Shown here: piece by piece, positions 24,686 through 54,879 of the stretch
Layout: every line of letters begins with the position of its first letter
Position numbering within the stretch: position 1 is the stretch's first letter
Source: Conchocele bisecta
Lineage: Eukaryota > Mollusca > Bivalvia > Lucinida > Thyasiridae
DNA: 64,000 bases
Direction: 5' to 3'
Assembly (NCBI GenBank): GCA_029237695.1
Contig: CM055267.1
Coordinates: 12,489,043-12,553,042 of the forward strand
Made by a program: the position numbers and the translations under genes
Notes under the pieces: generated by a model
The model's database searches: none
Told to the model about the DNA's origin: nothing
The model's input: the letters and a program-made list of their open reading frames with translations, nothing else

Positions 24686-24722
24686 GTAATAATATTTTAT
24701 TGAACAACAACATATTTACAAC
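24686..24722 (-). terminator. Polyadenylation cassette (protease gene)
   Basis: On the minus strand this reads ATGTTGTAAATATG, TTGTTGTTCAATAAAATATT. The same cassette follows the zinc-knuckle gene (37222-37262, minus), the polymerase (41958-41998, plus) and the gene at 43552 (44064-44095, plus). It contains the AATAAA signal. Confidence 0.8.
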
Positions 24723-24781
24723 ATGGAATTATAGACCAGATATGATATTCATATTTGATTTTTACAAAAGTACATGCAATA

Positions 24782-30481: not shown

Positions 30482-30537
30482 CTTTATACTAACAATACTT
30501 TATATTGAATGATACAAAATTAATTAATAACTGTATT

Positions 30538-30642
30538 TTATACACCTAAGTACCTTTTAATGTTTGCTGTTAATTCAGGATTTTTAAACGCAAAATCTTT
30601 GTCACGAATCGTAGCCGACTATATTCTTTATCATCCATTAAT
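30538..30642 (-). pseudogene. C-terminal fragment of a Polinton gene cut by a 2.4-kb insertion
   Basis: The minus frame ends at the TAA 30538-30540 and contains KDFAFKNPELTANIKRYLGV, a typical conserved C-terminus of a Polinton protein. A one-base shift lies near 30605. The upstream part of the same gene is at 33018-33937, separated by the insertion 30643-33017. Confidence 0.7.
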
Positions 30643-33017
30643 TGTAACACGGGTCACATAGTCTAGAGCAGTAATCGAATATTCTAGTACAAGACGGTCG
30701 AATAGGTATTGGTGTGTGAAATATCGCCCGTGGAGTACACCGCTGGAGAGAATAGCGCTTTATCCGAAACCGCGCACGGACTACCAGTATTGGATTTTGC
30801 ACTGGTCGTATCTGGGTGATCTACACTGTATATGCAGACTTAGATGCTAGCCTAATTACCTAGTAAGTCATACCTATTTATGACTGAAGTATTTCAGACT
30901 AATTCACCAGATATCTCATGAGCTAGACTGACTGTCAGATCATTAGTCCACTTACGTAAAATTGTGAGCCAAATGTTGGCACATAAGTTTTACATTGACA
31001 AGCAGACTACATGGGATAGTCATGCACTAGGGTGGGGTATATATTCGTTGTAGCACCATATATTATCAGTCGGACATTCAATTTCATTCTTGTGGCATTG
31101 GAGCGCAAGTTTTTCACTGGGAATTGGTGAGTACATATGTTGTTGTTACTTTCTAATGCTGCCATTTAAGTCTGAATCTTGCCAAGACCGGCAATTCTAC
31201 GCAGTGTTATCGTATCCTCGATAATACTGCACTATTTAATTTACCTGAGTTATTTGGCCCCGTTTCGACCAAACGCTTGGTCAATAAAAGCCGTATGGCA
31301 TGTCTCCGATGATGTAGATTATCTCCCTTAATCAAATATTATTGATTCATTAATTCGTCGTGCTTACGTGTAAATAATAACGATTACAGGACTGGCATGT
31401 GGGAGCATTCCGTGAGTATTGTAATGGCATATTATTCTCATGTGTTTTGTTGCATGTCACTCTGACTAATTGCATTAGCAATTTATTGTATTTGTAAAAC
31501 GAAGGGCGAACTCGATTGAAATGTTTAATAACAGTAGCCATGCATTTTATGTTACGATTCAATCGAATATCAGTCTGCGCCCTGTACAATACATGAGAAT
31601 ATTGCCAATTTTAACATGTCACAATTGTAACGTGAATTTTCTGGACGACTTTCATTACTCTATGGGGAAATACATGTTAACTCCTAACCCAGTCGTCTGT
31701 ACATTCATTTTAGTAAGTCCTATTACGTTCGCAGTGTGTTGTAAATATTGTAAATGCTATTGCGACCAGGATGGCCAGATCAGACAGTTCTGCTCTAAGT
31801 GCACTGATTTATACATCGGCAATCTGCAATAAGGACATGATGTGAAGTATAATGTGGTTCAATCACTGATGCTTTGGGTCAGCCTGTGGAATCCTACAGT
31901 CTGATTAGAGTATACAGTGTTTATGATTAGTAATGTAATGTAATGTACTACTGTGAATCTGCACAGGAGAATACTTGGCACAGTTGCTCTTTATTAAGTT
32001 AGCGCAGTTGGCCACGGGCAGTCTGGTCAAAGTAAGGCCTGTCGCAATCAAATGTTTGTTTACTAATGGTAAATAACTGTGAATGACGTCTGTATTCACA
32101 TGTACGGCTGTGAAGAGGTATATCGTTGGGTACACTAGATATAGTGGCTGTTCAGTAATGTGTTATATCGCATTTTCCGACTTATGAATTCCATCAGCCC
32201 CCTTCTTCCAATTAGGGAAAATATCTTTGTGTACATTGCATTGTATCATGTTTTATCATTGTAATATATGATGATGTTTAGTATTGCCATGCAATCAGGA
32301 TATTGATTTCATGTGCACTACTGTGACTATTATTGAGACTATAATCATGTTACATTCTGGTAACAACACCGTTGGTGTTTTGTAGTCCCAGCCAGTACAC
32401 CAGCCAGGCAACCAGCCAGTCAGCAACGAGCGACGGCACGTCCCTACTTTGTGTCTGCGTAATTCAGTACGCAACACAGAGTTATTTACTTATTCTGGAG
32501 TCCACGACACGACACCGTGTGTTAGCGGGGACTCTGCTCCGCGTGGACCAAGGGCGTAATCGAGTGGGGCATATTCAGGTGACGTCATTTCGTCAAAGGA
32601 CGTGAAGAATCGATAGGGACGTTCACCTATGCGTTATGGACCCCATCCGCCCAAGTAGGCTCAGTATCTCCTAAGAACCAGTAACTTTACGACGTTATTA
32701 TAACGTCACTCCCATCATGGCGGAAGCCGGAGTTGTTTAGATGATCTCTAACATTGGATATTTATCCAGATTATGATGACGTTTACTTTTGACTTTACCT
32801 ACCTGTTCCAGAATCGAGGATGTGCCATGGTTGTGAAAGGGCCTGTGGCGGTGGCTGCTAGGGGACGTTGTCCGTACTGACATATTCACTATTGTTTGTG
32901 TTTATCATTTATGTAAATATATCATACTTGTAAAAATATACCTTGTTGTCTCTGTCCACAACGTGCTTGGTGTTCCGTCCCTTCAGTAGACTAGCTCGGT
33001 GTCACCCTGGTGTGACA
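30643..33017. mobile_element. 2.4-kb insertion, unclassified (solo-LTR-like)
   Basis: Interrupts a Polinton gene. Ends TGTAACACGGGTCACA and TGGTGTGACA; read inward they form an imperfect inverted repeat (TGTAACAC/TGTCACAC), and TG...CA is the LTR pattern. A TATA box (31026-31036, GGGGTATATATTC) and an AATAAA (about 31284) lie in an LTR-like order. No convincing protein frame and no clean target duplication, so a long solo LTR or a non-autonomous DNA element are both possible. Confidence 0.6.
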
Positions 33018-34647: not shown

Positions 34648-34742
34648 TGTTTACAGTACAAGGTCCACATGTATTATGATATACTATCATGTGTATAGCA
34701 ATATTTTATTTGAAAAGGAATTCTGTTCGAATAGTTTGGGAT

Positions 34743-34758
34743 GGCCCTGAAAAGGGCC
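34743..34758 (-). terminator. Histone-type 3' stem-loop SL1
   Basis: Minus strand GGCCCTTTTCAGGGCC: 6-bp stem (GGCCCT/AGGGCC) and TTTC loop, the replication-dependent histone mRNA 3' signal. It lies about 200 bp past the stop of the 34956-35508 gene, but most of that gap is an expanded poly-T duplication. Confidence 0.8.
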
Positions 34759-34779
34759 GTTTGGGTAAAGGTGCGAGTA

Positions 34780-34955
34780 CTGTTATTTTTATTTTTAAAA
34801 AAGACACGAGTACTGGTACAATTTTTTTTTATTATTGTTTTTTTTTTTTTTTTTTTTTTTTTTTTATTGTTGTTTTTTTTTTTTGTTGTTGTTTTCTTTA
34901 AAAAAAAGACACGAGTACTGGTACAATTTTTTTGGTAAAAATCATTTGTCATATT
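34780..34955. repeat. Poly-T tract with duplicated flanks
   Basis: Two copies of AAGACACGAGTACTGGTACA (about 34801 and 34907) bracket long T runs broken by GTTGTTG. Frames here encode phenylalanine or lysine runs and are not genes. The expansion separates SL1 from its gene. Confidence 0.9.
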
Positions 34956-35508
34956 TTATTTTCGTGGAATCAAATGATTTTCTTTTTCTGGACGAATGTA
35001 TTTACGATGTGCGCCAGTCCCACTTTTATGTGGATGTATTTTTTCGTCAACTGTATCACACAGAGCCCTTTCGGCATGTTGGCTGATCTGTGCCACTGTT
35101 TTCTTGTCCAATTCAAACTTGATAGGTACTTTCAATGGCTTTGTGTTAAATGTCAAGTCCCGATTTTCCGATGGTTTCTCTAGTTTACTTGATAATGTGG
35201 CTGTCATACGATGCGATGTTCTCTAGTTTCTGTAATATTCTTTCTGTATTGTTGTTCAGTTTCTGTAGTTCTTTCAATATCATCACGTCTTCTTTCTTTC
35301 TTCCTTGGATCTGATGTTGTAATGATTGGTATGATGTAGAATCTTCTATCTTCTGTGCTGGGATGTATACAGGAACAGTTGGCTGCTGCTGCTGCTGTTG
35401 TTGTTGTTGTTGTGGTGGTTTTAAGGTTGGTTGATATATATCATTCATCGCCTCTGCTAATATATGAAAATCTTGACCGGCAAAATCGTAACTTCTGTTG
35501 TCAACCAT
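34956..35508 (-). pseudogene. Glutamine-rich coiled-coil accessory protein (one frameshift)
   Basis: A 107-residue frame (35185-35508) starts MVDNRSYDFAGQDFHILAEA, contains a run of about ten Gln and a predicted coiled coil (ILKELQKLNNNTERILQKLE), and overlaps by 23 bp a second frame (34956-35207) with KPLKVPIKFELDKKTVAQIS and a charged end. The overlap suggests a single protein split by a one-base indel; programmed frameshifting cannot be excluded. The promoter cassette at 35545-35640 lies 37 bp upstream of the ATG, and SL1 downstream marks the 3' end. No family recognised. Confidence 0.6.
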
Positions 35509-35544
35509 CGTATCGAATGTAAATTAATGATTTCATGATCGTCT

Positions 35545-35640
35545 TGTATACCCATCAAAAGGATTGACCTACTTAGAAATTGATAAAAATCAAGTGACCA
35601 ATCACAGTGTGTCTTACAAAACGACACACTTTATATTAAA
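35545..35640 (-). promoter_or_regulatory. Accessory-gene promoter cassette P1
   Basis: Minus strand: inverted CCAAT (35598-35602), extended half-site TAAGTAGGTCA (35565-35575), then a weak TATA (GTATACA, about 35545-35551). Nearly identical to P2 at 35990-36062 and built like the cassettes at 36631, 42500 and 44340. Confidence 0.7.
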
Positions 35641-35738
35641 CCAGAAAAAGGTTTTGTTGTGTTTATCAACTAACGACACATATACAAAGTTATTAGGATA
35701 TAAATTGTAAAAGTAATCTTTTCGTAATAATGTGTGGT

Positions 35739-35754
35739 GGCACTGAAAAGGGCC
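35739..35754 (-). terminator. Histone-type 3' stem-loop SL2 (one mismatch)
   Basis: Minus strand GGCCCTTTTCAGTGCC; one stem pair is broken. Followed by the same ACCACACATTATTAC sequence as SL3, so SL2 and SL3 with their 3' flanks are duplicates. Confidence 0.65.
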
Positions 35755-35989
35755 GTTTTTTTATCGTGGGTTTATTATTTGAGGATATCGTTCATCAAAT
35801 CATCAAACTTGTTCCAGTTATATACGAAGCTATTCGAGGCTTCTCTTGCTTCAAATTTCAAATTATATTAAGGAAATAAATTCCTAGCCACGTACTCGTG
35901 AAATAAATATATTAAAGTTAACATCCTAGATGTGTAGAGTTAGGGTTGTACTCTGACAATGTAATGCTTTGATTTATGATCGTCTTTTC
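35755..35989 (-). pseudogene. Decayed accessory transcription unit
   Basis: Lies between promoter cassette P2 and stem-loop SL2 but keeps no full frame; a short frame ends in KFDDLMNDILK just before SL2. On the plus strand 35766-35806 matches the 5' coding part of the polymerase gene at 38289-38330 in about 36 of 39 positions, so part of the unit was replaced by a polymerase fragment. Low certainty about any protein. Confidence 0.4.
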
Positions 35990-36062
35990 TACCCATCAAA
36001 AGGATTGACCTACTTAGACATTGATAAAAATCAAGTGAACAATCACAGTGTGTCTTACAAAA
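35990..36062 (-). promoter_or_regulatory. Promoter cassette P2 (TATA lost)
   Basis: Minus strand copy of P1 with TAAGTAGGTCAATCC and a diverged CCAAT position (GAACAATCAC). The TATA position reads TAGAAAAG, so the unit is probably inactive. Confidence 0.6.
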
Positions 36063-36261
36063 CGGTGCTTTGTTAAAGTTATTTCATTTTTACTTATTTT
36101 TAGCAATGTAAATTAGAGCTGATCAGAGATTATGTGCATACTAAAATGTTTAAATTACATCTGAAGATAGTACATGCTTTGAAATGTATTTTGTGTTTTA
36201 ACAACTAACGATAAATATACAAAGTTATTAGGATATAAATTGAAAAGTAATAATGTGTGGT

Positions 36262-36277
36262 GGCCCTGAAAAGGGCC
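36262..36277 (-). terminator. Histone-type 3' stem-loop SL3
   Basis: Minus strand GGCCCTTTTCAGGGCC, perfect 6-bp stem with TTTC loop, preceded by AAAAAC and followed by ACCACACA. It starts 31 bp after the stop of the 36309-36581 gene, the distance seen in histone genes. Confidence 0.85.
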
Positions 36278-36308
36278 GTTTTTTGTTTAGAGTGTACACC
36301 TGTACAAA

Positions 36309-36581
36309 CTAATATTCAGTGTAAGTGCGTCGCCATTTGTTGTTTGATTCTCGAGTTTTAACTCTGACAAAGCCCGTAGTATCAGGTTTTGTTTCTGTAG
36401 TAAAACTCTTTTGATCGTCCATTTCAAATTCTTTGTAAGCAGGTTTTGGTTGTTTCGTCATTCTCCTCAACAGGTCAGCCGTAACCATTTGCAACGCTTC
36501 TATGTCTTCCCTCATCGTCCCTACTACTTCAATCAATTCTGAGATCCTCCTTGCCACCATATCGCTTCGATCAGTATCCAT
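36309..36581 (-). CDS. Small helical accessory protein
   Basis: 90 residues from the ATG at 36579-36581 (MDTDRSDMVARRISELIEVV). An upstream in-frame ATG at 36629 lies only a few bases from the TATA box, before any likely transcription start, so I reject it. An amphipathic heptad-like segment (ISELIEVVGTMREDIEALQM) suggests a coiled coil; the C-terminal half is charged and polar, ending NNKWRRTYTEY. Intact. Promoter cassette P3 precedes it and SL3 follows it. It may be a distant relative of the coiled-coil protein at 34956-35508, as the flanking regulatory sequences are duplicates. No family recognised. Confidence 0.72.
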   Translation of the reverse strand: MDTDRSDMVARRISELIEVVGTMREDIEALQMVTADLLRRMTKQPKPAYKEFEMDDQKSFTTETKPDTTGFVRVKTRESNNKWRRTYTEY

Positions 36582-36630
36582 TTTTGAGTGTTCGGATGAA
36601 ACATGTGAAGTATGTGTTAAAAAACACATG

Positions 36631-36720
36631 CTTTTATACCCATCAAACGGATTGACCTACTTTTGGTAGTTTCACCAATTTTCCGATTTTCGTCCAATCA
36701 GAAAGCGTGTTGTAAACACG
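36631..36720 (-). promoter_or_regulatory. Promoter cassette P3
   Basis: Minus strand: CTGATTGGACGAAAATC with an inverted CCAAT (36694-36698), AAAGTAGGTCA (36653-36663, a full match to the ROR-type extended half-site), then TATAAAAG (36631-36638) 14 bases on. Nearly the same string precedes the genes at 42608 and 44477. Confidence 0.8.
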
Positions 36721-36832
36721 TTTTTACAGTCAGGAGTTTGACTGTAAAAACGGATTGAAATTCATCCAATGAGAGGGACAGAATCCTTAACCAATCAAAT
36801 CCTCTAAATTTTTAGCCAATGAAATGATGGAT
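36721..36832 (+). promoter_or_regulatory. CCAAT-rich divergent promoter
   Basis: Three plus-strand CCAAT boxes (ATCCAATGAG, AACCAATCAA, AGCCAATGAA) stand before the small plus-strand gene at 36833-37083, and an inverted repeat TTTTTACAGTC/GACTGTAAAAA lies at about 36722-36752. With P3 this forms a divergent promoter. Arrays of CCAAT boxes are also typical of histone promoters. Confidence 0.6.
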
Positions 36833-37083
36833 GAAATCATTTCAGGATCTAAAGCGTACAGTATTCATTCTTACATACCAGAATGCAGATCAAGAAATTC
36901 TTCCACAGTTTGCGAAAAATTGTATTCTCCAGGAAACATTATGTTATTGAAGAAAAGAAGAGAAATAAAGAATTATTACAACAATTCTTTGCAAGACGTG
37001 GATATCATTGGCCTTCCAAACAAAAGATTGTTTGGAAAGTTACAATGAATAACTTGTACCCCGATCTGTCTGAATTCTATTAG
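36833..37083 (+). pseudogene. Small basic accessory gene (likely one frameshift)
   Basis: A frame from ATG 36833 (MKSFQDLKRTVFILTYQNAD) is open for 39 codons; another, from ATG 36883, is open to the stop at 37081-37083 and ends with ARRGYHWPSKQKIVWK and NNLYPDLSEFY. One indel near 36945 would join them; alternatively the 66-residue frame alone is the gene. Basic, aromatic-rich, no family recognised. SL4 follows 13 bp after the stop. Confidence 0.55.
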
Positions 37084-37096
37084 ACAGTAATTAAAC

Positions 37097-37112
37097 GGTC
37101 CTTTTCAGGACC
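37097..37112 (+). terminator. Histone-type 3' stem-loop SL4 with purine element
   Basis: GGTCCTTTTCAGGACC: a perfect 6-bp stem whose bases differ from SL1/SL3/SL5 by a compensated pair (T-A for C-G), which argues for selection on structure. CAGGAAGAAAC begins about 11 bases downstream, where the U7-binding purine element sits in histone genes. Confidence 0.85.
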
Positions 37113-37221
37113 ACAGTATTTTCCAGGAAGAAACACTTGCATTTTATAAATCATATGAATTAACCATACAAATTATAAAATGATAATTAACAAACAAGAA
37201 AATACATTTCAACTTGTATTA

Positions 37222-37262
37222 ATTTAACAATATTTTATTGAACAACAATATATTTACAACAT
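37222..37262 (-). terminator. Polyadenylation cassette (zinc-knuckle gene)
   Basis: Minus strand CATGTTGTAAATATATTGTT and TTCAATAAAATATTGTTA, almost identical to that following the polymerase gene (41958-41998). Confidence 0.8.
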
Positions 37263-37290
37263 GTAATACATAGTGTCTATTCAATCAAAT

Positions 37291-37983
37291 CTAAAAGTCA
37301 ATTTTCCTCTTCTTGACTGTAACACTCGATTTACCCTGGTATTTACGTTTACGACTGTTCACTGGTTTCTCTGTGGGGTTAACATCCACTGTGTTAGGCG
37401 TGGGTTTCTGGTCATAATCACAAGCCCAATGTGATTTCGATTTACAGATGAAACATCCAGCGTACATAACATTTCTTGGTAGCTTCAGATGACTCTCTTC
37501 GTTGTAATAAGACATGAATTTTCCAACACACAGGTCTTGGGTGATACTAGGAGAATCCGAAAATTGAACTTCATGAGAATATGGATTCACAAACACATCC
37601 ATGTACTTTCCTTGTAGCTTCTGGCTACATTTATTAGCCCAATGCTCCGTTGATTGGCAGATGTAACATCTGTTAGGTGATATTTCGTCACCTCCATATT
37701 TCTCATCGATGCTGAATTTTGTAAACCTCTTTCGTGTCGAAATCAGGTACTCAGAGTCGCCCAAATAATTGTAAGATGTAAACGATCCAACAAAGTTTCC
37801 AATATGTTTTATCGGATAGGTTTTCGGTATGTTGCTGAATTCAACTTCATGAGTAAACGGATTTACATATAAATTCATTTCACATCCTTTGTGCCAATAT
37901 TTCATACTTTCGAAATAGTCAACAAAATGTTCCTCGTGTTTTTGTAGTTGAATTGAAGAACGTTCTATCGCTTGAGAGTCCAT
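37291..37983 (-). CDS. Duplicated-module protein with CCHC zinc knuckles
   Basis: Intact, 230 residues. Two tandem modules: VNPFTHEVEFSNIPK ... CYICQSTEHWANKC (residues about 40-118) and VNPYSHEVQFSDSP ... CFICKSKSHWACDY (about 130-192). The first knuckle is a full CX2CX4HX4C; the second keeps C, C and H but has Tyr at the last position. The C-terminus is basic (NSRKRKYQGK, TVKKRKIDF), probably a nuclear localisation signal. A nucleic-acid-binding role is inferred. A minus-strand TATA (38036-38044) lies about 55 bp upstream, divergent to the polymerase promoter. I know no standard Polinton gene with this layout. Confidence 0.8.
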   Translation of the reverse strand: MDSQAIERSSIQLQKHEEHFVDYFESMKYWHKGCEMNLYVNPFTHEVEFSNIPKTYPIKHIGNFVGSFTSYNYLGDSEYLISTRKRFTKFSIDEKYGGDEISPNRCYICQSTEHWANKCSQKLQGKYMDVFVNPYSHEVQFSDSPSITQDLCVGKFMSYYNEESHLKLPRNVMYAGCFICKSKSHWACDYDQKPTPNTVDVNPTEKPVNSRKRKYQGKSSVTVKKRKIDF

Positions 37984-38029
37984 GTCGCTTCAGAGTTCAG
38001 TAGACTAATGATGACCATATGGAATTTGT

Positions 38030-38110
38030 GGCTTCTTTTATAGCCGTCACGGTGTAACGATAGTATATAAGCTGCTGTAAATTGATTAATACTTTATTAT
38101 GAAATTCAAC
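38030..38110. promoter_or_regulatory. Divergent promoter between zinc-knuckle gene and polymerase
   Basis: Minus-strand TATA (CTATAAAAG, 38036-38044) and plus-strand TATATAAG (38064-38071), the latter 40 bp before the polymerase ATG. No ROR-type half-site here. Confidence 0.6.
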
Positions 38111-41100
38111 ATGCCACTTGTACCATAATCGGACACCGAGAGTGAAAACGAAGAGTCATCAGATGTTAGAAGATTTTATGATCTTATACAAGAAAAAAGT
38201 CGAAGATCAAGAACATTCAGAACTGAATCATCAGTTTTTAAAACAACATTCAAGAAATTTGATGTAGACGAACACCCTCAAAATTTCGTTGGTGTATTAT
38301 TTGATGATATCGTTCATCAAATCATCGAACAAATTGATGGCGATCCACACGACAAAATCAGTGTAACATTAAATCATCCTGCATTAAAGATGGGGATACC
38401 GATTCCATTCTTGAATGTTGAAGATTTGAATGGGAACATATTGTTACAAGAAATAGAAAAAGTTATACAATCGAATATGGATTTTAATTTGAACGATGAC
38501 AATCGAAACAACGTTTACCAAAATGCCAACAGGTTCTGGAAGAAAGAAGACGACCTCTAAAATTGATTCTCGAGTTTTCACGAAAAAAAAAAAGAAAACT
38601 GTTGTGAAAATTGAAAATTCAAAAGACAATATGTGTTTAGCCCGGGCTATTGTTGTTGGAAAATGTCATGCTGATGGAGAAGTTTCTTCAACCTGGAATA
38701 GACGGTGGAATGTAATTCGACAGACATCACGTCCTTTACAACGTCTTGAAGCAGAGAAATTATTGAATGAAGTTGGAATTTCACCACAAAAAGCTTGTGG
38801 ATTTGAAGAATATAAGAACATACAACAATATATGTATCCAGAATATGTGATCAAGATTCATCAACAACATGTGAAAACAGAATTGTTGTTTGATTATCCA
38901 GAAATTCAGTCATACACCAAAATAATACATGTATTCTATAATCAAGATCACTATGATTGTATTACAAACATTGTTGGATTTCTTGGATGTTCTTACTATT
39001 GTGAGATGTGCGATATTGCTTACCAAAATCGTGAAACACATATATGCCCTACTTCGTGTAAGGCATGTCGTTCCAAAACAAAATGTCATGTGATAGATTG
39101 TATCAAGTGTAACGATTGTCTCAGGAGATTTTATAGTGGAACGTGTTTTGCAAATCATAAGCAGATTGAAGGGCGAAAAAAGAAATCAATTTGTCAACTC
39201 ATAAAATGTTGTGGCAAATGTGGAGGTCAGTTTGCCGACTCCAAGAAGAATCATACATGTAAAGGAAAGAAGAAATGCATATTTTGTAAAGAGATTGTTA
39301 GTTTTTACCATAAATGTCATATTCAACAGTATAAAAGCAAAACTGAAGAAGATGATCATGAACCGTTTTTTATATTTTATGATTTCGAATGTCAACAAGA
39401 CACGGGTGTACACACCCCTAACTATTGTATTGCACACAGAGCTTGTGATGACTGTATCAATGAACCAATAGAATTCAATTGTGAATGTTGTAGTCGGTTT
39501 CCTGAAGGAAGAGAAGTAGTATTTGAAGGAAAAAATACTTTATCAGAATTTTGTAATTGGTTGTTTTCAAAACAACATAAAGGTGTCACAGCTATTGCAC
39601 ATAATTTCAAAGCGTATGATGGTCAATTCATTCTTCACCATCTCATTGAAAAGGGAATGTTTAAACCAAAGGTAATAATGAATGGTAATAACATTATGGT
39701 TATGGAAGCTGGAGGTATACGATTGATTGATTCATATAATTTCATAAATTCAGGATTGGCAAAATTTCCAGAAACCTTTGAATTGAAAGAAATGGCTAAG
39801 GGATATTTTCCACATTGGGCAAATATTGATAAATTCGCCGCTTATGTTGGTCCATACGTTGATGTCTCTTATTACAAACCAGATTCATGAGGATAACTGC
39901 TAGGGAAAAGTTTTTATCTTGGTATAACGAACGTGTGGAAAACAACGATTGTTTCAATTTCAAACAAGAAATGGAAAAATATTGTCGATCGGATGTAGAT
40001 ATTTTGAGACGTGGTTGTGGAGAATTCAGGAAGGTATTCATGGAATATGGAGGTATAGATCCGTTTCTAGAAGCCAGTACAATCGCTGATGCATGTAACA
40101 AAGTTTGGCGTAACAAATATATGCCAAGTAATCAGATCGGAATTATTTCAAGCAGAGATCCGATTAAACGCAAATTTTCAATGAAAGGTATTCGATGGAT
40201 ACAAAGTATTGCACACGAAAACAATATTGTTATCCAACATGCAAAAAATGGTGGTGAATATCAAATTGGTCCTTATACTGTAGATGGGTTTCACAAAGAA
40301 TCAAATACTATCTATGAGTTTCTCGGTGACCTATGGCATGGTTGTCCTAAATGTTACCCAAATCGTAATATAAAAAACCCGATAAATGGTGAAACAATGC
40401 AAAATTTATATTCACAAATATTTGAAAGATAGGAATATTTCAGTGTAATTGGTTACAAAATTCACACTATGTGGGAGCATGAGTTTGATTTGAAAATGAA
40501 AACTGATAAAGAATACAAAAAGATGATCGAACAATTCTCTTTCCAAACTGTGATCCGATTGAACCTAGGGAAGGATTGTTTGGTGGACGTTGTAATGCTA
40601 TAAAAATTAAATATGATATTGAAGAAATTTCAGATGATGAAATCAAATATATTGATATTTGTTCATTGTATCCATTTGTATGTAAACACAAAGAATATCC
40701 GATAGGACACCCCGATATTTTGACAAAAGAAAATATTGATGTAGAAAACATCCGACAGTATGAGGGCTTGATAAAATGTAAAGTTATCCCCCCGACCAAT
40801 CTATTTCATCCTGTGTTACCAACACATTGTAATAATAAACTCATGTTTTTGCTATGTAGAACATGTGGAGAAGAAAGTTCTACAAAGTGTGCACATACAA
40901 TTGAAGAAAGAACTTTGGTTGGTACATGGGTGTCAATAGAATTGTTTAAAGCATTGGACTGTGGCTATACGTTGTTAGACGTATATGAAGTATGGCATTT
41001 TTCGGAAAAATCTAATGATATTTTCTCTGGGTATGTGGACAATTTTCTTAAAATCAAACAAGAAGCAAGTGGCTACCCAGGATGGTGTATAACAGAAAAA

Positions 41101-41966
41101 GACAAAGAAACATTTGTTAAGGACTATGAAGAAGCTGAAGGTATTTGTCTTGATCCATCAAACATACAAACAAATACTGGTCGTAGAGCATTTGCCAAGA
41201 TTATGTTAAATTGCTTATGGGGTAAATTGGCACAACGTGAAATCATGACACAAACGGAATACATCAATAATCCTTCAAAATATTTTGATTTGATTTCAAA
41301 TCCATGTATAATGGTAAAACACGTAGAAATATTTGATAATGAATGTCCATTCATATTGGTTAACTATGAAACTAGGCTTGAACACATTGAATCCCATGCA
41401 ACATAAAACGTTGTAGTGTGATCATATGTAACAGCATATGCAAGACTTGAACTATACAGTGTTTTGGAAAAGTTAAATGAACGTGTCTTGTATTTCGATA
41501 CAGACAGTTGTATGTACATACATAAGCAGAATTCATGGAACCCACCCCCCCCCCCCCCCTAATCAATAGTAGGCTTGGTAAATGGACTGATGAAGAACCC
41601 GGAAATAAAATAATAAGTTTTATGGGTTTAGGACCAAAGAGTTATGCTTACAAGTTGATAACAAAAGCTGGGGAAATAAAATCCAAATGCAAAGTTAAAG
41701 GACTGACACTCGATTACAACACAAGTCCAGTAGTGAACTTTGATACGTATGTTCAATGTGCAGAGGACCGAAGTACAGAAGTGAAGGTTGTGTATGCATG
41801 TAAAATCCGGAGACATGCAAACAGAACAGTAACGAGTGAATGTCAAAGCAAGACATTTAGATCTGTGTACACAAAACGTGTCATTGTTGACAATTTCAAT
41901 ACTGTACCATACGGTTACAACACATTGATTGATTTATATGTCTTGTTAAATGAATACATGTTGTAA
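38111..41966 (+). pseudogene. Protein-primed family B DNA polymerase (pPolB)
   Basis: The replication enzyme of Polintons, about 1280 codons. N-terminal domain, then a cysteine-rich zone (about 39000-39330), exonuclease motifs FYDFECQ (about 39376), AHNFKAYDGQF (about 39598) and YCRSDVDILRR (about 39982); polymerase motif A DICSLYP (about 40654), motif B ending NCLWGKLAQRE (about 41208) and motif C YFDTDS (41492-41509), then KSYAYK. Lesions: in-frame stops at 38126-38128, 40430-40432, 41404-41406 and about 41416; frame changes near 38500, 39885, 40545 and in a C-run at 41545-41560. All catalytic motifs remain visible but no single frame spans them. The C-run and some shifts could be assembly errors; the stops look real. 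Confidence 0.95.
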
Positions 41967-41998
41967 ATATATTGTTGTTCAATAAAAATATTGTTAAA
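41958..41998 (+). terminator. Polyadenylation cassette (polymerase gene)
   Basis: The polymerase stop lies within this block, ATGTTGTAAATATATTGTTG then TTCAATAAAAATATTG. Confidence 0.8.
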
Positions 41999-42037
41999 TA
42001 AAACAAGCTTAACTGTAAAAACTTTTTTGAAAATAAA

Positions 42038-42478
42038 ATGGATCAACTAAGAAAACATTGTGAACAGCATCTGAAAGCCGAAGAATGTAATTGTTTTGAT
42101 TTCCTCATAAATTGTTCTATAGGCATATTAAACGGAGAATACGCTATTAATAATGTGAAAATTTATAAATCACCCAAATATCAATATTATCCTTTCATAG
42201 GATACATAACAAACAATTCTAGATTTATACCTTTTGGTATTTGTCCAAAGATAACTGTGATAGAAAAAAATAAGATTTATAGGTTAGTAAGTTCTAGAAC
42301 ATACGGGGAGGATAGTCAGATTTATTTCGATAAGGATCTTAAACCTTTGCTTCATCTATACAGTCATAAAATTCCTTTTTCAGGGGATGTGAACATAGAA
42401 ACTAAAATTATTAAAAGTTATCCCAGTATCCCTCAATTAAATGTGAGAAAAGAGTACTGTAAATGGAATATTGGATAA
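42038..42478 (+). CDS. Right-arm accessory protein, unknown
   Basis: Intact, 146 residues, begins MDQLRKHCEQHLKAEECNCF. A compact, Tyr/Ile-rich sequence (YQYYPFIGYITNNSRFIPFG) with no domain I recognise and no membrane segment. It starts 72 bp after the polymerase stop, downstream of TTTTTTGAAAATAAA; AATAAA follows its stop at once (42481). It ends just before promoter cassette P4, so it is probably polyadenylated, unlike the next gene. Confidence 0.7.
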   Translation: MDQLRKHCEQHLKAEECNCFDFLINCSIGILNGEYAINNVKIYKSPKYQYYPFIGYITNNSRFIPFGICPKITVIEKNKIYRLVSSRTYGEDSQIYFDKDLKPLLHLYSHKIPFSGDVNIETKIIKSYPSIPQLNVRKEYCKWNIG

Positions 42479-42499
42479 AAAATAAAACTTTTTTGTAAC

Positions 42500-42580
42500 A
42501 CGCTTTCTGATTGGACGAAAATCTGAAAAAATGACTAAACTACCAAAAGTAGGTAAATCCGTTTGATTGAGTATAAAAGC
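42500..42580 (+). promoter_or_regulatory. Promoter cassette P4
   Basis: CTGATTGGACGAAAATC (inverted CCAAT 42510-42514), AAAGTAGGTAA (42546-42556, half-site with one change from AGGTCA), TATAAAAG (42572-42579). The spacing is that of P3 and P5. Confidence 0.8.
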
Positions 42581-42607
42581 ATGTGTTTTTTATACCCATC
42601 AAACACG

Positions 42608-42847
42608 ATGTCGAAGCCTACAGAAAACTGGGGTGATGATGAGAGAGCGAATGTACAATCACAGCAAGAATACTGGGATGAGGAGATCCGACGAGCTCCA
42701 GCACCATCATTTGTGATTCCTGGAAAACCCAGCAAAAAGTCTACACACAGATTTCTCTTAACATGTAGAAGCTGTGGATCACGGGACTGTGGTGATCATA
42801 AAAACTACATTGAAAGAGTGATCAAGTATGATCAACAACAAAGTTAA
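42608..42847 (+). CDS. Small CXXC accessory protein with histone-type 3' end
   Basis: Intact, 79 residues, MSKPTENWGDDERANVQSQQ onward. The ATG at 42608 is about 29 bp past the TATA box; the in-frame upstream ATG at 42563 precedes the TATA and is rejected. The C-terminal half has LTCRSCGSRDCGDHKNY, a possible single zinc site (C, C, C, H). SL5 starts 21 bp after the stop. No family recognised. Confidence 0.75.
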   Translation: MSKPTENWGDDERANVQSQQEYWDEEIRRAPAPSFVIPGKPSKKSTHRFLLTCRSCGSRDCGDHKNYIERVIKYDQQQS

Positions 42848-42867
42848 ATCACATAATCAAGACAAAA

Positions 42868-42883
42868 GGCCCTTTTCAGGGCC
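42868..42883 (+). terminator. Histone-type 3' stem-loop SL5
   Basis: GACAAAA then GGCCCTTTTCAGGGCC then AATAC. Both stem-loop and the A-rich 5' flank match the metazoan histone 3' signal. The downstream purine element is weak (TTTAGAATAGATAAA). Confidence 0.85.
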
Positions 42884-43028
42884 AATACAAATATTTAGAA
42901 TAGATAAACATTATAATCAGTTGTACCTATATAAACGTTTTGCATTTTGTCATAAGCCATTATCGTCAAGGTATTTGCTCTAGAAACAACAAATATTATA
43001 CAGTACTTTTAGATAATAAACAATAAAA

Positions 43029-43514
43029 ATGATGGGACATAATTATGAGTTGTGGTTACAAAACGATGTTTGTCTGGTAAAGAAATCCCGAGAAGCACCC
43101 CGACAAAGAAAGACAATACATGACACATTCAATAGATGTATGGTTGAACAACTTCAATCATTAATTTAAAAAGAAGTAAATGACAATTGTTATGGATGTC
43201 AGGTTGAACATCCAAGTCAATTACGGCATCAACTGTGCTTATTCACAGATCAAGATGAACAAACAGATTTATTCATATTGACAGCTCTACGGAAATTAGA
43301 TCCCTATAAAATTATGGAAGAATGGTATCCAATTCTCAAAGATATGGCATTGGACGATCAAGAGAAATTGGAAGCATACAGACTATGGATACAAATTAAA
43401 AACAAAATCCGTTTTAGATCCAATGAATCGTGGTTGGAACAGTTGAAAAAACAAGTCAAACAATCGTGGAAAGAGATTGATATTAAAGACTATAAAAGTA
43501 GGAACGGATTATAA
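43029..43514 (+). pseudogene. Right-arm protein with CYGC...HPSQ...H zinc-like motif (one stop)
   Basis: One frame from MMGHNYELWLQNDVCLVKKS to the stop at 43512-43514, broken only by TAA at 43167-43169. After it comes NCYGCQVEHPSQLRHQLC, a Cys/His cluster I have seen as a recurrent block in invertebrate Polinton-type proteins, then a helical region with YKIMEEWYPILKDMALDDQE and a basic C-terminus. Length about 161 codons. The stop is a one-base change from Glu or Gln. Confidence 0.65.
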
Positions 43515-43551
43515 CTGAATCATTCTATGAATAGACACAGTTGAAGAAACA

Positions 43552-44139
43552 ATGAATCCTCTGACAGATCTATTCAATCGTATAGCAATCAGGAAACCAA
43601 TAACAATGAATCCTCTGACAGATCTATTAAATCACATAGCATACAGGAAAGCATTGATACTTGCTTTCAAACTAAAAGTATCAAATGAACAATATCTTAC
43701 AACCGGGATCATCAAGGATGAATTAGAGAAAATAGAGATGTTTGAAGAGTTCAAGAAAGCCCTATTAGCAACAACGGGGTTCTTCAAAGATTCAAGGATT
43801 AAAGTAGAACAATTAACATTTGAACAATGGAGAAAAGAAGTTGTTGAAAATGACAATATTGTGAATTTCTTATTTAAGCGATGTAAACCGAACTTACGGA
43901 ATAGTGTAAATACTGAAACAATGCCTGGACTAAGGCTCCCATTGCTCACGTTTCATGGACAGAGAGAGATTGTACCAATGGAAATAGTACAGATTAGTGA
44001 GACTGAATCAATGTGTGTGTGCCCCCATTGTTCACGCTTCATGGACAGTGATCATGATACATGTTGTAAAATATGTTATTGTTCAATAAAATATTATTAC
44101 AACTTTACATATCTCGTATTCAATTTTACCATAAATTGA
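43552..44139 (+). CDS. Right-arm protein with in-frame 54-bp duplication, C-terminal Cys cluster
   Basis: Starts MNPLTDLFNRIAIRKPIT, and a second copy MNPLTDLLNHIAYRK follows at once: a 54-bp tandem duplication (43552-43605 and 43606-43659) that also duplicates the start codon. The middle part is helical (KKALLATTGFFKDSRIKVEQ), the end has CVCPHCSRFMDSDHDTCCKI, a likely zinc site. The frame runs on through the polyadenylation cassette at 44064-44095, so the true stop was probably just before it and has been lost by a shift. Its helical part may be related to that of 43029-43514. Confidence 0.65.
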   Translation: MNPLTDLFNRIAIRKPITMNPLTDLLNHIAYRKALILAFKLKVSNEQYLTTGIIKDELEKIEMFEEFKKALLATTGFFKDSRIKVEQLTFEQWRKEVVENDNIVNFLFKRCKPNLRNSVNTETMPGLRLPLLTFHGQREIVPMEIVQISETESMCVCPHCSRFMDSDHDTCCKICYCSIKYYYNFTYLVFNFTIN

Positions 44140-44310
44140 AAAATACCAATATATTGATTTACAATCAATATTTATTTTCATTTAACTTTTGTCAATATTA
44201 GAGTTGTCAGAAGTGGATGAAAATTATTTCTAGGACATTTTCATATGTATTTGATAATATTGGAGTTGTCAAAAATATTTGAAAATTATATATAGGAACA
44301 GTACACATCA
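44064..44310 (-). repeat. Right TIR, inner part
   Basis: Complement of 24480-24722, including ATTTACAATCAATATTTATT and GACAACTCTAATATTGAC. Separated from the outer part (44791-45035) by a complete small gene. Confidence 0.9.
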
Positions 44311-44339
44311 CTAGGATATCACAAAATGCGTTTACAACA

Positions 44340-44420
44340 CGCTTTCTGATTGGACGAAAATCTGAAATTTTAATAAACTACCAAAAGTAGGTCAATCCTT
44401 CTGATGTGTATAAAAAGTAA
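44340..44420 (+). promoter_or_regulatory. Promoter cassette P5
   Basis: CTGATTGGACGAAAATC (inverted CCAAT 44349-44353), AAAGTAGGTCA (44384-44394, full match to the ROR extended half-site consensus), TATAAAAA (44409-44416). Confidence 0.82.
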
Positions 44421-44476
44421 AAACACAAAGCTATATCTCATTAGTCTCATTAAACTGTTCAACCAACTACATAAGA

Positions 44477-44689
44477 ATGCATAAGAACGGTGAATGCTCT
44501 ATGTGCGATGAACACTGTTACATACAGTGTAGGAAATGCTATGCAGTACTACACACTCACGGGGAAGAACACAATTGTCCAGAGTTCGACGAAGGCTTTT
44601 TCGAAGAAGAGGATATTAAAGACCTCGAAATTTGTGAGGCGTGTGAGTTAGTCGTCGACTATATGTGGGATAACCTGCACACTGCATAG
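44477..44689 (+). CDS. Small acidic zinc-binding-type protein inside the TIR
   Basis: Intact, 70 residues, MHKNGECSMCDEHCYIQCRK onward. Cysteines and histidines in pairs (CSMC, CYIQCRKC, HTHGEEHNC, CEAC) suggest two small zinc sites; the middle is acidic (EFDEGFFEEEDIKDLE). Promoter P5 lies 61 bp upstream and SL6 17 bp downstream. The whole unit lies between the inner and outer halves of the right TIR and has no counterpart in the left TIR. Confidence 0.78.
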   Translation: MHKNGECSMCDEHCYIQCRKCYAVLHTHGEEHNCPEFDEGFFEEEDIKDLEICEACELVVDYMWDNLHTA

Positions 44690-44706
44690 TTTACTAAAAG
44701 ACAACA

Positions 44707-44720
44707 GCCCTTTTCAGGGC
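44707..44720 (+). terminator. Histone-type 3' stem-loop SL6 with CAAGAAA element
   Basis: GCCCTTTTCAGGGC, a 5-bp stem (the outer pair is A-A) with TTTC loop. CAAGAAA begins 12 bases downstream (44733-44739), matching the sea-urchin U7-binding element core and its usual spacing. Confidence 0.82.
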
Positions 44721-44790
44721 AATACACTTTCTCAAGAAATGAATACCTTACATACTGCTCATGTTGAATACAAAAACGATTTGTTTGTTA

Positions 44791-45035
44791 ACCACTATAA
44801 CGTAATACAAGAAGTTTCCACCCCCCGGATAAAATTCACGAATCTCCATCAAAATAGCCACTATAGTGTAATACAAGAAGTTTCCAGCCCCAATAATGGG
44901 AGTAATAAGGGGTGGCACATATGGTACGGTTTTTTAACATGTGTTTTTTACATAGACAAACGGTGCAAGGGTAAAATCCGTCTATGTAAAAAACACATGT
45001 TAAAAAACCGTACCATAGTGCCACCCATTACTACT
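44791..45035 (-). repeat. Right TIR, outer part with terminal palindrome
   Basis: Complement of the outer left TIR; palindrome at 44910-45028. Ends CCATTACTACT at 45035. Confidence 0.93.
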
Positions 45036-45780
45036 TTCGTACACGCCTTCGTCTTTCATGTAGCGCTCTCAACTTCGACCTTCACAGGAGATATATTGTT
45101 GACATCCCACTCTGCACATGCGGATCCATAGAAACAGTCAGCCATTTTCTTTTGTATTGCAACAAATATACACTTCAGCGAAACACATATATTAACAACC
45201 TTCCATGTCCTCCCACAGCAGACACACTGCTCCGCGGCAATGAACATTTGACATTCCAGGAAAACAGCTTCGTATTTCAGCAGGTCCAGAAGTTCATCGT
45301 GGCTACAAGGCGTTTCGGCAATTGAGGAGACAAGTGGGCAGATGTCTAGTACGAGCCACCATGCCAGCAATGAGTGCATCCCTTTACACCCCCCCCCCCC
45401 CCACCATACAATAGTTATAATTTCGATTACATTGATATCATTTTATGTGTGTACTCCCTTCTTTAGTACAGAAATACTGAACTTATAGTTTTATAAATAA
45501 TGCTTTAAAATACATATTCCACCATCAATCTACACATATTACCATATATTTAGAATATAAATGATCAATTGTTATTTCAGTCACCATTGATAATTAACTA
45601 GTCATAACCTGCCTGACAGTGATGCCATGTATATTGCACTCACGCTGATAGTGGAGAAGAATTCATATAAGCTTTCTCAAGCTTGTTTTCCAATCCACAC
45701 ACTATTTAATGTTTGTATCATACCATGTGTTGTTCCTTTGCATGACTTATAACTTAATAAATATTGTTTAAACTAATGGT
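45036..45780 (+). pseudogene. LINE 3' part, continuing after the Polinton
   Basis: TTCGTA (45036-45041) is the right copy of the target duplication. The LINE frame continues across it with ARLRLSC-type and DIPLCTCGSIETVSHF...YCNKY, the usual C-terminal CCHC block of many LINEs, to a TGA at 45323-45325. The rest is 3' untranslated, with a C-run at 45390-45403 and AATAAA near 45757. Together with 23283-24072 it is one truncated LINE. Confidence 0.85.
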
Positions 45781-46422: not shown

Positions 46423-46560
46423 TATTGCATGGAACTTGTTGACGCTTTTTCTATATACATGTATCCTGGAACGTCTTGACGCTTTTTCTGTACACATATT
46501 GCATGGAACTTCTTGACGCTTTTTCTATATACATGTATCCTAGAACATGGATCCTCCTTG
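46423..46560 (+). repeat. Short tandem repeat
   Basis: CTTGACGCTTTTTCT occurs three times with ATATACATGTATCCT between (46438-46545). Confidence 0.8.
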
Positions 46561-46699
46561 CCCCTCTCCGTCTCCTTTTTGTCCCATGTTAAATTTATAT
46601 ATGAACATTGTTTTAATCACAATTAAATCAATATTTAATATCAAACTAGAGAACGTGCGGAGGGGCTTACGTATCCCCCCGGCCGCCGCCTGGACCGAC

Positions 46700-46960
46700 A
46701 AATAAAAACAACTTTAACGCAAATATTTAAAAAAAAAATATAAAAAAAAACATTAACGAAAATGTCTAAGTAATTTGACCGTGACCTTGGCCATGAAGGC
46801 CGCATGAGTGTGGTATGGAATGAAAATATGGATGATGATAATGAAGTATATGAAATTTGAGGTCAATCCGACTCACCGTTACAGAGATAATGGGAACCCA
46901 ACAACTTTAACATGGACGGACGGACGGACAAACGAACGGATACGACATAATACATGAGTC
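46700..46960 (+). repeat. Family R2 unit with ACGG end
   Basis: Blocks AACTTTAACGCAAATATTT, GGCCGCATGAGTGTGG and CAATCCGACTCACCGTTACA, closed by ATGGACGGACGGACGGACAA. Confidence 0.75.
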
Positions 46961-47125
46961 ATGCGTGCCAGAAGGTATCAATTCTAAGTTACACACGAGC
47001 ATCTTTTTGCCACTTTACGCCAAAAAATCCTCTTTTCGCCACTTTTTCACTTCTGTATATGTATCTGTATTATTACAAAGCAGCACCAATTAATAGAGTT
47101 ATATATACTTAGGTAAACCGTATCA

Positions 47126-47360
47126 GGGTCCCGTTCACTAAACTTCGTAGGACTAAGAAGTTCGTAAGTGCAAACTTTAAATATCCAATAACCTCTGAAC
47201 TGGCATTCGATGCTGTCAAACCTTTCGTGGATGTGTTCACAGTTAATGATGTGTACATGTAGTTAGAAAATGGAGCATTAGTTAACCACTTTAATATGAG
47301 AAGAAAATTCATAAAACTCTTCTTACGAACTTATTTACGCAATTTAGTGAAACGGACCCT
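47126..47360. mobile_element. MITE, GGGTCC(C)GTT-CACTAAAC family, copy 1
   Basis: Left end GGGTCCCGTTCACTAAACTT and right end AGTGAAACGGACCCT form an inverted repeat. A second family member is at 56046-56266. Both have inner AAG(A/T)(A/T)GTTCGTAAGTGCAAA blocks. Confidence 0.65.
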
Positions 47361-48279
47361 TGCCTCCTAAGTTACGCAAAGTTAAAATTGACACAAATCT
47401 GGAGAGAACAAAATAACGATAAAAAAGGAAATAAAATCTCCAAGTAGACAGCAAGTACTTATACACACGGTACTAACGCGTCGTACAGCAATTATACATG
47501 AAATAAAACACAAATCCTGAAAACTTGTTTTTTTTTTCTTGCTTCCAGATGTGATTCCTATAGTTTAATCAAATGGTCGTGAACACACAGTACACAACTT
47601 GTTGGAACCTTATATCCTCCGTATAAGCTACCTCTCAATACTTGTAGTCATCAGTGGGGTATTGACACAGGGCATTAAAACTGAAAACATGTAAATGTGT
47701 TTTTCATATCACTTGTTACTGGCAGGCATCGCATCCTTAGAAGAAGTTTTAGTTCGTGATAGTGTGCGACAAAGCTATGTTGTCAATCTTTTGAAGTGTT
47801 GTATGTGTATAAAAATACCTTCTACTAGTATCCAAACGCTGTCTAGTATAATAAGTGCATTGCTAGCAATTTTACACTTCATGAGGTTAGAGTCCATACA
47901 GTTTTGCCGCACAGCTTGATATTGAATAAGGATGAATTGTGTTTTTGTCTTGCGCTGGACATCTATAGTGATTACGTGAATAATGTCCTCATATACAATA
48001 TGGCACAGTTGGCATGTGATTTCTACGGCACTGTTACTGAATTAATGTTTATTTACTTATATGTAGTATTTCCCGATCACTGACACCAGGGCAACACGTG
48101 GATGTAAACAATATTATATTTCAATTATTTCCAGTGGTGCTCTCTTTTAGATATATAGTCATTTCATCCCTCTTCTGTCCGAGACTGGAACTCTCTGCCA
48201 GAAACACTCAAGATGCTCCGTCACTTAGTTGTTTTAAAGCCAAAATAACTAGATGGTCGGTAAATCCTACAAATACTCC
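47361..48279. other. Unassigned sequence
   Basis: No gene supported; the frame at 47695-47919 has no domain or splice context. Confidence 0.35.
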
Positions 48280-49150
48280 CCGATGACGCCCGGATTGAAA
48301 TTCAAAGTCCATGGTGATCAATGTGTATATATGATGTTTCAAGCTGATATCGCAAGCGGTCACAGAGATATAGCAATTTGAAAAACTTTAACGTAAGCTT
48401 TAGCAAAAATTCTAAGTCATTTGACCTTGGGCTCCTGGGCAGCATGGACATGGGAGACCATAAAATATGGATGGTGATCAATGTGTATATGCAGTTTCAA
48501 GTTGCTATCGCAAGCGGTCACAGATATATAGCAATTTGAAAAACTTGAACGTAACCTTTAACAAACAAAACAAAAGTCATTTGACCTTGACCTTGGGCTC
48601 CTGGACAGCATGGTATACGATGAAAATATGGATGGTGATCAATATGTATATGAAGTTACAAGTTGATATCGCAAGCGGTCACAGAGATATAGCAATTTGA
48701 AAAACTTTAACGTAAAACTTGGACGGCGGACGCCGGACAAAGCGGTAACTATATATTCCCCCGATATGTGGTATGGAATGGAAATATGAATGATAACAAA
48801 GTAGTATATGACGTTTGAAGTCAATCCGACTTACCGTTGCAGAGATAATGGGTACCCGAAAACATTTACGCAATATTTAAACAAAAACATTTCTAAGTAA
48901 TTTGACCTTGGCATTGAATTTGAAAACCACGTGGGTGGGGTATGGAATGGATGATGGTAAGTGATGGTAAGGGAGTATGTGAAGTTTTAAGTCAATCCAA
49001 CTGACCGTTGCAGGGATAATGGGTACCCGAAAACTTTAACGCAAATCTTACGGATGGATGGATGGATGGACAGACGGACGGACGAACAGACGGACGAAAT
49101 GACGAAAACTATATACCCGTCTACAGACTTCGTATCTTCGTATGCCGGGG
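48280..49150 (+). repeat. Two R2-like arrays (three and two units) with ACGG/GATG ends
   Basis: 48280-48770: units with GATATCGCAAGCGGTCACAG and CAATTTGAAAAACTTTAACG, period about 140-170 bp, ending GGACGGCGGACGCCGGAC. 48770-49150: two units with GTCAATCC(G/A)ACT(T/G)ACCGTTGCAG, ending in GATGGATGGATGGACAGACG and a hairpin stretch (CTTCGTATCTTCGTATGCCGG). Confidence 0.75.
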
Positions 49151-51187: not shown

Positions 51188-51242
51188 ATGGACAAGAAAG
51201 AGAATAACGTTTGTTCCAAGTGTGGTAAACCTGTTTATTTTG
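51188..51242 (+). CDS. Candidate first coding exon of a CRIP/CRP-like LIM protein
   Basis: ATG at 51188 opens 18 codons, MDKKENNVCSKCGKPVYF, then one G and a strong splice donor (GTAAGT at 51243). CSKCGKPVYF is the start of a LIM domain of the cysteine-rich intestinal protein type (pattern CxxCxxxVYFAE). The exon ends in phase 1 with a G, which would begin an Ala codon, the residue usual after VYF in the family. Other exons should lie downstream on the plus strand; I could not find them before the window end. This is the only host gene candidate here. Confidence 0.55.
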
Positions 51243-54830: not shown

Positions 54831-54879
54831 GCTGTGTTTGTTGGAAAATAAGTGTTTTGGTTTCAGTTTATTATCCCCT

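Follow-up and report, generated by a model that had tools for sequence, protein, structure and literature searches.

A Polinton of 20,963 bp, located at positions 24073-45035 of a 64-kb stretch of the genome of the bivalve Conchocele bisecta (the whole stretch is referred to below as the window), carries six hairpins of the kind that ends replication-dependent histone mRNAs, placed behind small non-histone genes or the remnants of such genes. From the sequence we predict that these units probably give rise to unpolyadenylated mRNAs bound by the histone stem-loop binding protein (SLBP), with a likely accumulation in S phase. The assignment of the hairpins as putative histone-type 3′-end signals of small Polinton genes is well supported by their match to the Rfam model, the flanking adenines, the distance from the stop codon, the strand, the promoter box of the units and the contrast with genes ending in an AATAAA module. 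Since the hairpins lie on the coding strand behind genes and five of the units share a promoter box, the messages are predicted to be processed like those of histones; S-phase timing and the absence of poly(A) tails are what we infer for them.

Six histone-type stem-loops in the Polinton

All six stem-loops of the window, designated SL1 to SL6, lie inside the Polinton; five of them were returned by a strict scan and all by a tolerant one. Three are on the minus strand: SL1 (GGCCCTTTTCAGGGCC, 34743-34758), which scores 33.8 bits (E 1.8e-6) with the Rfam model RF00032 and folds at -11.4 kcal/mol (z -3.3); SL2 (35739-35754; 29.7 bits, E 6e-5; fold -4.2 kcal/mol, z -1.1), which has one internal stem mismatch and belongs to a decayed unit; and SL3 (36262-36277; 32.0 bits, E 8.8e-6; fold z -4.0). 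The plus strand carries SL4 (GGTCCTTTTCAGGACC, 37097-37112; 32.2 bits, E 6.9e-6), with a compensated pair in its stem, SL5 (42868-42883; 33.0 bits, E 3.5e-6; fold z -4.3) and the lowest-scoring site, SL6 (44706-44721; 25.5 bits, E 2.3e-3; z -3.0), in which the outermost pair is open and a 5-bp stem starts at 44707. The stem is complete at 6 bp in four sites (SL1, SL3, SL4 and SL5), the perfect hairpins folding at -9.3 to -11.4 kcal/mol, and has five pairs in SL2 and SL6.

Invariant in all six are the UUUC loop, the closing U-A pair, the second G-C pair, the adenines at -3/-2 and the adenine at +1, and at every site a CA starts 2-7 nt past the stem. The minimal SLBP site has been described as the stem-loop with two adenines on its 5′ side and one on its 3′ side (PMC10388802). 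A preliminary description of this DNA had listed six hairpins at these positions and on these strands, all with a TTTC loop and stems of 5-6 bp, and the window scans together with RF00032 bear it out. The compensated stem change that it reported in SL4 is real, being a two-sided replacement of C-G by U-A in one of the six rows, and lacks statistical support: it is a single event, equalled in 85 of 500 shuffles, and covariation was dropped as an argument.

Frequency of the hairpins expected by chance

The Polinton contains four copies of the 16-mer GGYYCTTTTCAGRRCC, which is missing from the remaining 43 kb and from all 200 dinucleotide shuffles. Full 6-bp stems closed by any of six T-rich loops number six in the Polinton and three in the remaining window (shuffle mean 1.0, maximum 4), and RF00032 gave no match at E≤10 in positions 1-26000 and 46500-64000. 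Looser hairpins (at least five pairs, any of the six loops) are not enriched, with 24 in the Polinton against a shuffle mean of 16.8 and a maximum of 28.

The bare 17-nt hairpin core was also found in seven viral contigs, one site in each, with no RF00032 match at the Rfam cut-off among them. These cores were rescanned by E-value because the six Polinton sites miss that cut-off as well; one of the six contigs scanned (L004 was left out for its length) reached E≤1, at 24.8 bits. Five of the Polinton sites, at 29.7-33.8 bits, stand above this score, lifted by their flanks, and SL6 hardly does. As to position, two of the seven viral cores sit 10 and 30 nt past the stop of a frame of at least 60 codons and five have no such stop within 200 nt; three of the seven lie inside an open frame of the same strand. 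We take the bare cores of the viral contigs to be chance occurrences. The calibration checks make SL6 less convincing on its own but do not alter the overall reading.

Genes preceding the stem-loops

The genes ahead of the hairpins are short, the intact proteins having 66-90 amino acids (aa). On the minus strand, the SL1 gene (34956-35508) is frameshifted, with open pieces at 35185-35508 and 34956-35207, and is followed by the SL3 gene (36309-36581, 90 aa) in order of coordinates, with the remnant of the SL2 gene (35775-35867), a 30-codon open tail ending in TAATAA, between them. On the plus strand lie the genes of SL4 (36883-37083, 66 aa), SL5 (42608-42847, 79 aa, rich in cysteine) and SL6 (44477-44689, 70 aa, with CxxC pairs and an acidic stretch). 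The stop codon is separated from the hairpin by 31 nt in SL3, 13 nt in SL4, 20 nt in SL5 and 16 nt in SL6, which agrees with the four distances of 13-31 nt, each hairpin oriented with its gene, claimed beforehand. SL2, for which the preliminary description had no explanation, could now be placed 20 nt behind the stop of the open reading frame (ORF) remnant, and between SL1 and the stop of its gene, which is frameshifted, lie 197 nt with an expanded A/T tract. A random same-strand site in the Polinton has a probability of 0.0325 of lying within 31 nt past a stop codon that closes an ORF of 60 or more codons, so that four of six gives P 1.6e-5 (9.8e-6 for ORFs of at least 66 codons). These values flatter the case, since the 31-nt limit was itself derived from the six hairpins.

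When the SL proteins were compared (six pieces from five genes), alignments never exceeded five residues, and no Pfam histone profile matched the SL1, SL3, SL4, SL5 and SL6 frames. The SL5 protein has a single database relative, P0001, and since the two are 53% identical the SL5 gene exists beyond this copy; no database relatives of the SL6 protein were found. A likeness of the SL6 protein to E1A/E7 was considered and rejected, since it is limited to CxxC and the acidic stretch, with no LxCxE in the translation.

A promoter box common to five hairpin units

Five exact copies of the box AGTAGGTMAATCC are present in the window, one each in the SL1, SL2, SL3, SL5 and SL6 units and always on the strand of the hairpin. 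When up to two mismatches are allowed ten sites are found against 2.2 expected, a number reached by none of 100 shuffles; the other five sites are all outside the Polinton. In the four units with a TATA motif (SL1, SL3, SL5 and SL6) the start of the box precedes that of TATA by 23-24 nt, and ATTGG, the reverse CCAAT box, lies 29-38 nt ahead of the box. The SL1 promoter (35543-35573, minus strand) comprises the box AGTAGGTCAATCC and TATACAA, the SL3 promoter (36631-36661, minus strand) the box and TATAAAAG, and those of SL5 (42548-42578) and SL6 (44386-44416), both on the plus strand, the box and TATAAAA; in SL2 (35984-36014, minus strand) the box is accompanied by changes of TATA to TAGA and of ATTGG to ATTGT. 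The 8-mer CTGATTGG, which we take to be the NF-Y consensus, occurs in the window in three exact copies, all within SL promoters (36694-36701 in SL3, 42507-42514 in SL5 and 44346-44353 in SL6). Histone promoters often have CCAAT boxes. In the excerpt of the histone review PMC5706932 neither CCAAT nor NF-Y appears as a word.

The five SL promoters are 85-95% identical over 31-109 nt, those of SL1 and SL2 (P1/P2) reaching 95% over 96 nt. Because the promoters are alike and the proteins show no alignment beyond five residues, the SL units are more than duplicates of a single gene. Upstream of SL4 CCAAT stands at four places, one of which is the SL3 promoter read from the opposite side. It was also noticed by eye that the 5′ leader of SL5 (42548-42608) contains TTATACCCATCAAAC, the reverse complement of the stretch GTTTGATGGGTATAA of the SL3 promoter, as a near inverted repeat at the SL5 start.

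Two classes of 3′ ends

A different module, CATGTTGTAAATATRTTGTTGTTCAATAAAATA, which includes AATAAA, is common to the ends of the protease gene (PRO), the zinc-knuckle gene, the polymerase region and ORF 43552-44139. It was found behind PRO at 24693-24725 (minus strand, CATGTTGTAAATATGTTGTTGTTCAATAAAATA, no mismatches), behind the zinc-knuckle gene 37291-37983 at 37231-37263 (minus strand, no mismatches), at the end of the DNA polymerase region at 41957-41989 (plus strand, two mismatches) and inside the 3′ end of ORF 43552-44139 at 44061-44093 (plus strand), where the long form has eight mismatches and the 20-nt core one. No such module stands behind the SL genes, apart from a core match with five mismatches behind SL1 (34700-34719). 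Two 3′-end classes are present among the Polinton genes, one with the hairpin and the other with the AATAAA module; it had been stated before that the larger genes are devoid of the hairpin, which is correct, and four genes proved to share this alternative ending.

The first AATAAA past the stop codon is met after 90 nt in SL1, 170 nt in SL5 and 535 nt in SL3, with none within 600 nt in SL4 and SL6. In human, Drosophila and Caenorhabditis elegans, histone genes with AATAAA downstream of the hairpin have been reported (PMC1924863), and for that reason its presence behind SL1 and SL5 does not contradict the hairpin reading.

Candidate U7 sites

Purine runs that may act as U7 sites lie on the plus strand behind SL4 (AGGAAGAAA, 37125-37133) and SL6 (AAGAAA, 44734-44739), at +13 in both cases, and another run is located at +16 of SL2. 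The two runs named originally, those of SL4 and SL6, are real; over the set such runs are visible in three of the six sites at most against a background of 16.5%, and the U7 site was dropped as evidence. Pairing with the 5′ end of human U7 is 1.2-1.7 standard deviations above shuffles for SL4, SL5 and SL6. The U7 sites of Drosophila histone genes, which are AU-rich, show poor pairing with mammalian U7 (PMC7026596), so a missing purine run is not decisive.

Probable gain, duplication and loss of the units

The SL6 cassette (promoter, ORF and SL6; 44307-44784, plus strand, 478 bp) is situated within the right terminal inverted repeat (TIR) of the Polinton and is absent from the left one. The left TIR at 24725-24481 matches the right at 44060-44306, and the match resumes at 44785-45039 of the right TIR; where the latter has the cassette, the left TIR has tandem repeats of TIR sequence of about 95 bp (24217-24447). 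Present in the right TIR only, the SL6 unit was either gained on one side or lost from the other as a block. SL1-SL3 form a local array, in which SL2 and SL3 share their downstream sequence, and SL2 is the one dead unit, with changes in CCAAT, TATA, ORF and stem together. It is likely that the promoter-ORF-hairpin unit is a heritable module that has been gained, duplicated and lost. The right TIR also contains, at 44920-45017, a perfect inverted repeat of 38 nt with a 22-nt spacer, of which a near copy exists in the left TIR; its matches to miRNA families are far below the Rfam cut-offs.

The Polinton and its surroundings

The element, the sole Polinton of the window (no strand assigned), has the termini AGTAGTAATGGG..., and TIRs at both ends. 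It is bracketed by the 6-bp target-site duplication (TSD) TTCGTA (24067-24072 and 45036-45041), a combination characteristic of Polinton/Maverick elements. When the flanks are joined without the element one open frame is restored, which by eye resembles the C-terminus of a non-LTR retrotransposon protein; for the left piece of this interrupted frame Pfam returned no informative match.

Among the core genes, the adenovirus-type protease PRO matches PF00770 with 26.8 bits (cut-off 21.3) and the packaging ATPase of the A32 type matches PF04665 with 22.8 bits, exactly the cut-off of 22.8. The family B DNA polymerase (PolB) was recognized by PF03175 (DNA_pol_B_2, cut-off 25.8) in 38496-39890 (35.0 bits) and 40510-41406 (105.7 bits); the pieces 39863-40432 and 41526-41966 of the polymerase region have no Pfam match, the last one being assigned by position. 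The integrase (INT) has a broken frame and scores below the cut-offs throughout (two pieces match rve at 23.9 and 16.3 bits against a cut-off of 32.6; Chromo reaches 24.9 bits, cut-off 25.1). No profile match to a major capsid protein was obtained among the element pieces scanned. As PolB, INT and ATPase are each split over several frames, this copy of the Polinton is decayed.

For the ATPase 166 protein relatives were obtained at E≤1e-3, the closest among the best 120 of these being 81% identical. The only one of these 120 with an organism name, P0045, comes from a metagenome bin of Candidatus Thiodiazotropha taylori. This bacterium is a symbiont of lucinid clams, in keeping with a bivalve origin, and a Polinton-type ATPase under its name is likely host DNA in the bin. 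The search for related Polinton DNA gave no PolB pattern match and no promoter pattern match in viral contigs, where 24 stretches were found for the ATPase with none confirmed; with an ATPase alignment (35 of the 120 listed relatives) 63 stretches in viral contigs and 31 in genome contigs were obtained, again with none confirmed. The extended hairpin pattern had no match in genome contigs, and no relative of the Polinton ATPase was found in the phage collection.

Several other features were recorded in passing. The region 30500-32990, between structural genes, has no recognized Polinton gene (one frame was scanned with profiles) and is possibly a foreign insertion. The zinc-knuckle gene (37291-37983), which adjoins the polymerase gene, consists by eye of two similar halves with a zinc-knuckle-like motif in each (zf-CCHC 19.9 bits, cut-off 20.8), and ORF 43552-44139 opens with a short internal duplication, MNPLTDLFNRIAIRKPIT / MNPLTDLLNHIAYRKAL (43552-43660). 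Outside the Polinton, 61065-61203 and 61771-61868 form hairpins with sub-cut-off matches to miRNA families on both strands and are more like short inverted-repeat transposons.

Proposed mechanism and alternative explanations

In the proposed mechanism transcription by host RNA polymerase II would begin at the CCAAT/box/TATA promoter; the hairpin of the transcript would be bound by host SLBP, and the U7 small nuclear ribonucleoprotein would direct cleavage a few nucleotides past it. SLBP would mediate translation of the SL mRNA, which would be degraded once DNA synthesis stops. The accessory proteins would be made during host DNA replication, and the protease and polymerase genes would keep ordinary poly(A) ends. 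Taken to its full extent, this describes an animal virus-like transposon with a histone-style regulon, in which unrelated non-histone genes reside in cassettes of about half a kb (S-phase-type promoter, ORF, SLBP hairpin) and accessory proteins would rise and fall with host DNA synthesis; theirs would be the first metazoan non-histone mRNAs with a histone stem-loop instead of poly(A). For this extended version we consider the chances to be about even.

A number of observations weigh against the interpretation of the hairpins as histone-type signals. It is based on one Polinton copy, itself decayed. None of the six sites reaches the curated Rfam cut-off of 34 bits (the best, at 33.8, is short by 0.2), and SL6 at 25.5 bits is barely above the chance viral core at 24.8. 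The SL4 unit has neither the promoter box nor a TATA match. With ORFs of at least 80 codons only two of the six hairpins are near a stop (P 0.0055). The purine-rich downstream site is missing behind SL1, SL3 and SL5, that is, present in three of six, and pairing with the human U7 5′ end is no better than in shuffles for SL1, SL2 and SL3. An AATAAA at 35771-35776 overlaps the stop of the SL2 remnant, and AATAAA lies within 200 nt of the stop in two of the five usable SL genes versus nine of the 15 other gene ends, without a clear difference. The simple AATAAA count, which separates so poorly, was rejected as evidence for two classes.

That the hairpins arose by chance in an AT-rich, repeat-laden element is scarcely credible, even if hairpins of the looser kind abound (24, with a shuffle mean of 16.8) and the bare core turns up once in each of seven viral contigs, within 30 nt behind a stop in two of them. 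The shuffles speak strongly against it, the 16-mer GGYYCTTTTCAGRRCC appearing in 0 of 200, RF00032 has no match in the window outside the Polinton, and none of the seven viral stretches holds more than one copy. If they are not accidental, the hairpins might be generic termination or 3′-end hairpins followed by polyadenylation, without SLBP, in the manner of the mimivirus hairpin poly(A) signal common to Sputnik. The AATAAA downstream of SL1 and SL5 would suit such a function, which we regard as quite unlikely in view of the fixation of the sequence itself and not just of the palindrome (UUUC, closing U-A and flanking adenines in six of six), the lack of enrichment of hairpins of other sequence, and the absence of a viral RNA polymerase profile from the 30 frames scanned, which cover part of the Polinton.

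The hairpins could further be functionless relics of one captured histone 3′ end, spread inside the Polinton by segmental duplication. The local array of SL1-SL3 with the downstream sequence common to SL2 and SL3, the identity of P1 and P2 (95% over 96 nt) and the broken PolB, INT, ATPase and SL1 genes are all in keeping with such an origin. We nevertheless find it rather unlikely, because promoter and hairpin have been kept around unrelated coding parts, the placement behind stops is tight, the worst stem is that of the dead SL2 unit, and the SL4 stem has survived a two-sided change, albeit a single event. A role as decoys, RNAs that would sequester host SLBP and reduce the supply of histones instead of serving their own genes, would account for several SLBP-like sites in one Polinton; it is improbable, as hairpins on the coding strand, 13-31 nt past stop codons and with a shared promoter box, fit gene 3′ ends better, and nothing in the sequence analysis indicates high transcript numbers. 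If the histone-type reading is true, a mobile element gives the histone mRNA ending to its own non-histone genes, a DNA virus-like element could time genes to S phase by host signals alone, and RNA data selected for poly(A) miss part of Polinton expression.

Comparison with known systems

The element resembles other Polinton/Maverick elements and the adintoviruses in its TIRs, 6-bp TSD, family B polymerase, putative rve-chromo integrase pieces, C5-type protease and A32-type ATPase. Its SL units are like the replication-dependent histone genes of metazoans in the 16-nt stem-loop, the U-rich four-base loop, the adenines (AA before and A after the stem) and the short distance from the stop. Unlike those genes, the Polinton SL genes match no Pfam histone family, belong to a mobile element and have hairpins that miss the Rfam cut-off. 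The C. elegans histone mRNA ends have the form AACGGCCCT...AGGGCCAC (full form AACGGCCCTCTTTAGGGCCACAT; AACGGCCCT-CTTT-AGGGCC-ACAT) and are identical to the Polinton hairpins in stem and flanks but differ in the loop; the mRNAs terminate 3-6 nt past the hairpin (PMC1924863). In Hydractinia the histone genes have TATA promoters, as do four of the SL units, and 6-17 non-conserved bases separate the histone stop codon from the conserved stem-loop block (PMC5011920).

Among the matches listed in the open-licence PMC literature (titles and beginnings of abstracts), none describes histone-type 3′ ends for genes of Polintons or viruses; the excerpt of PMC11071296 mentions histone-like proteins in some animal viruses and makes no mention of histone-type 3′ ends. 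The nearest parallel is offered by the virophages Sputnik and mavirus, relatives of the Polintons, whose genes carry the promoter or 3′-end signals of the machinery on which they depend (PMC6723459). The borrowing of 3′-end signals is plausible because virophages carry the promoter and the hairpin 3′ signal of their giant virus (PMC6723459). Virophages borrow the signals of giant viruses, whereas those of this Polinton are the signals of animal histone genes. The element is known and the signal is known; what would be new is their use together, as histone-type 3′ ends on Polinton genes.

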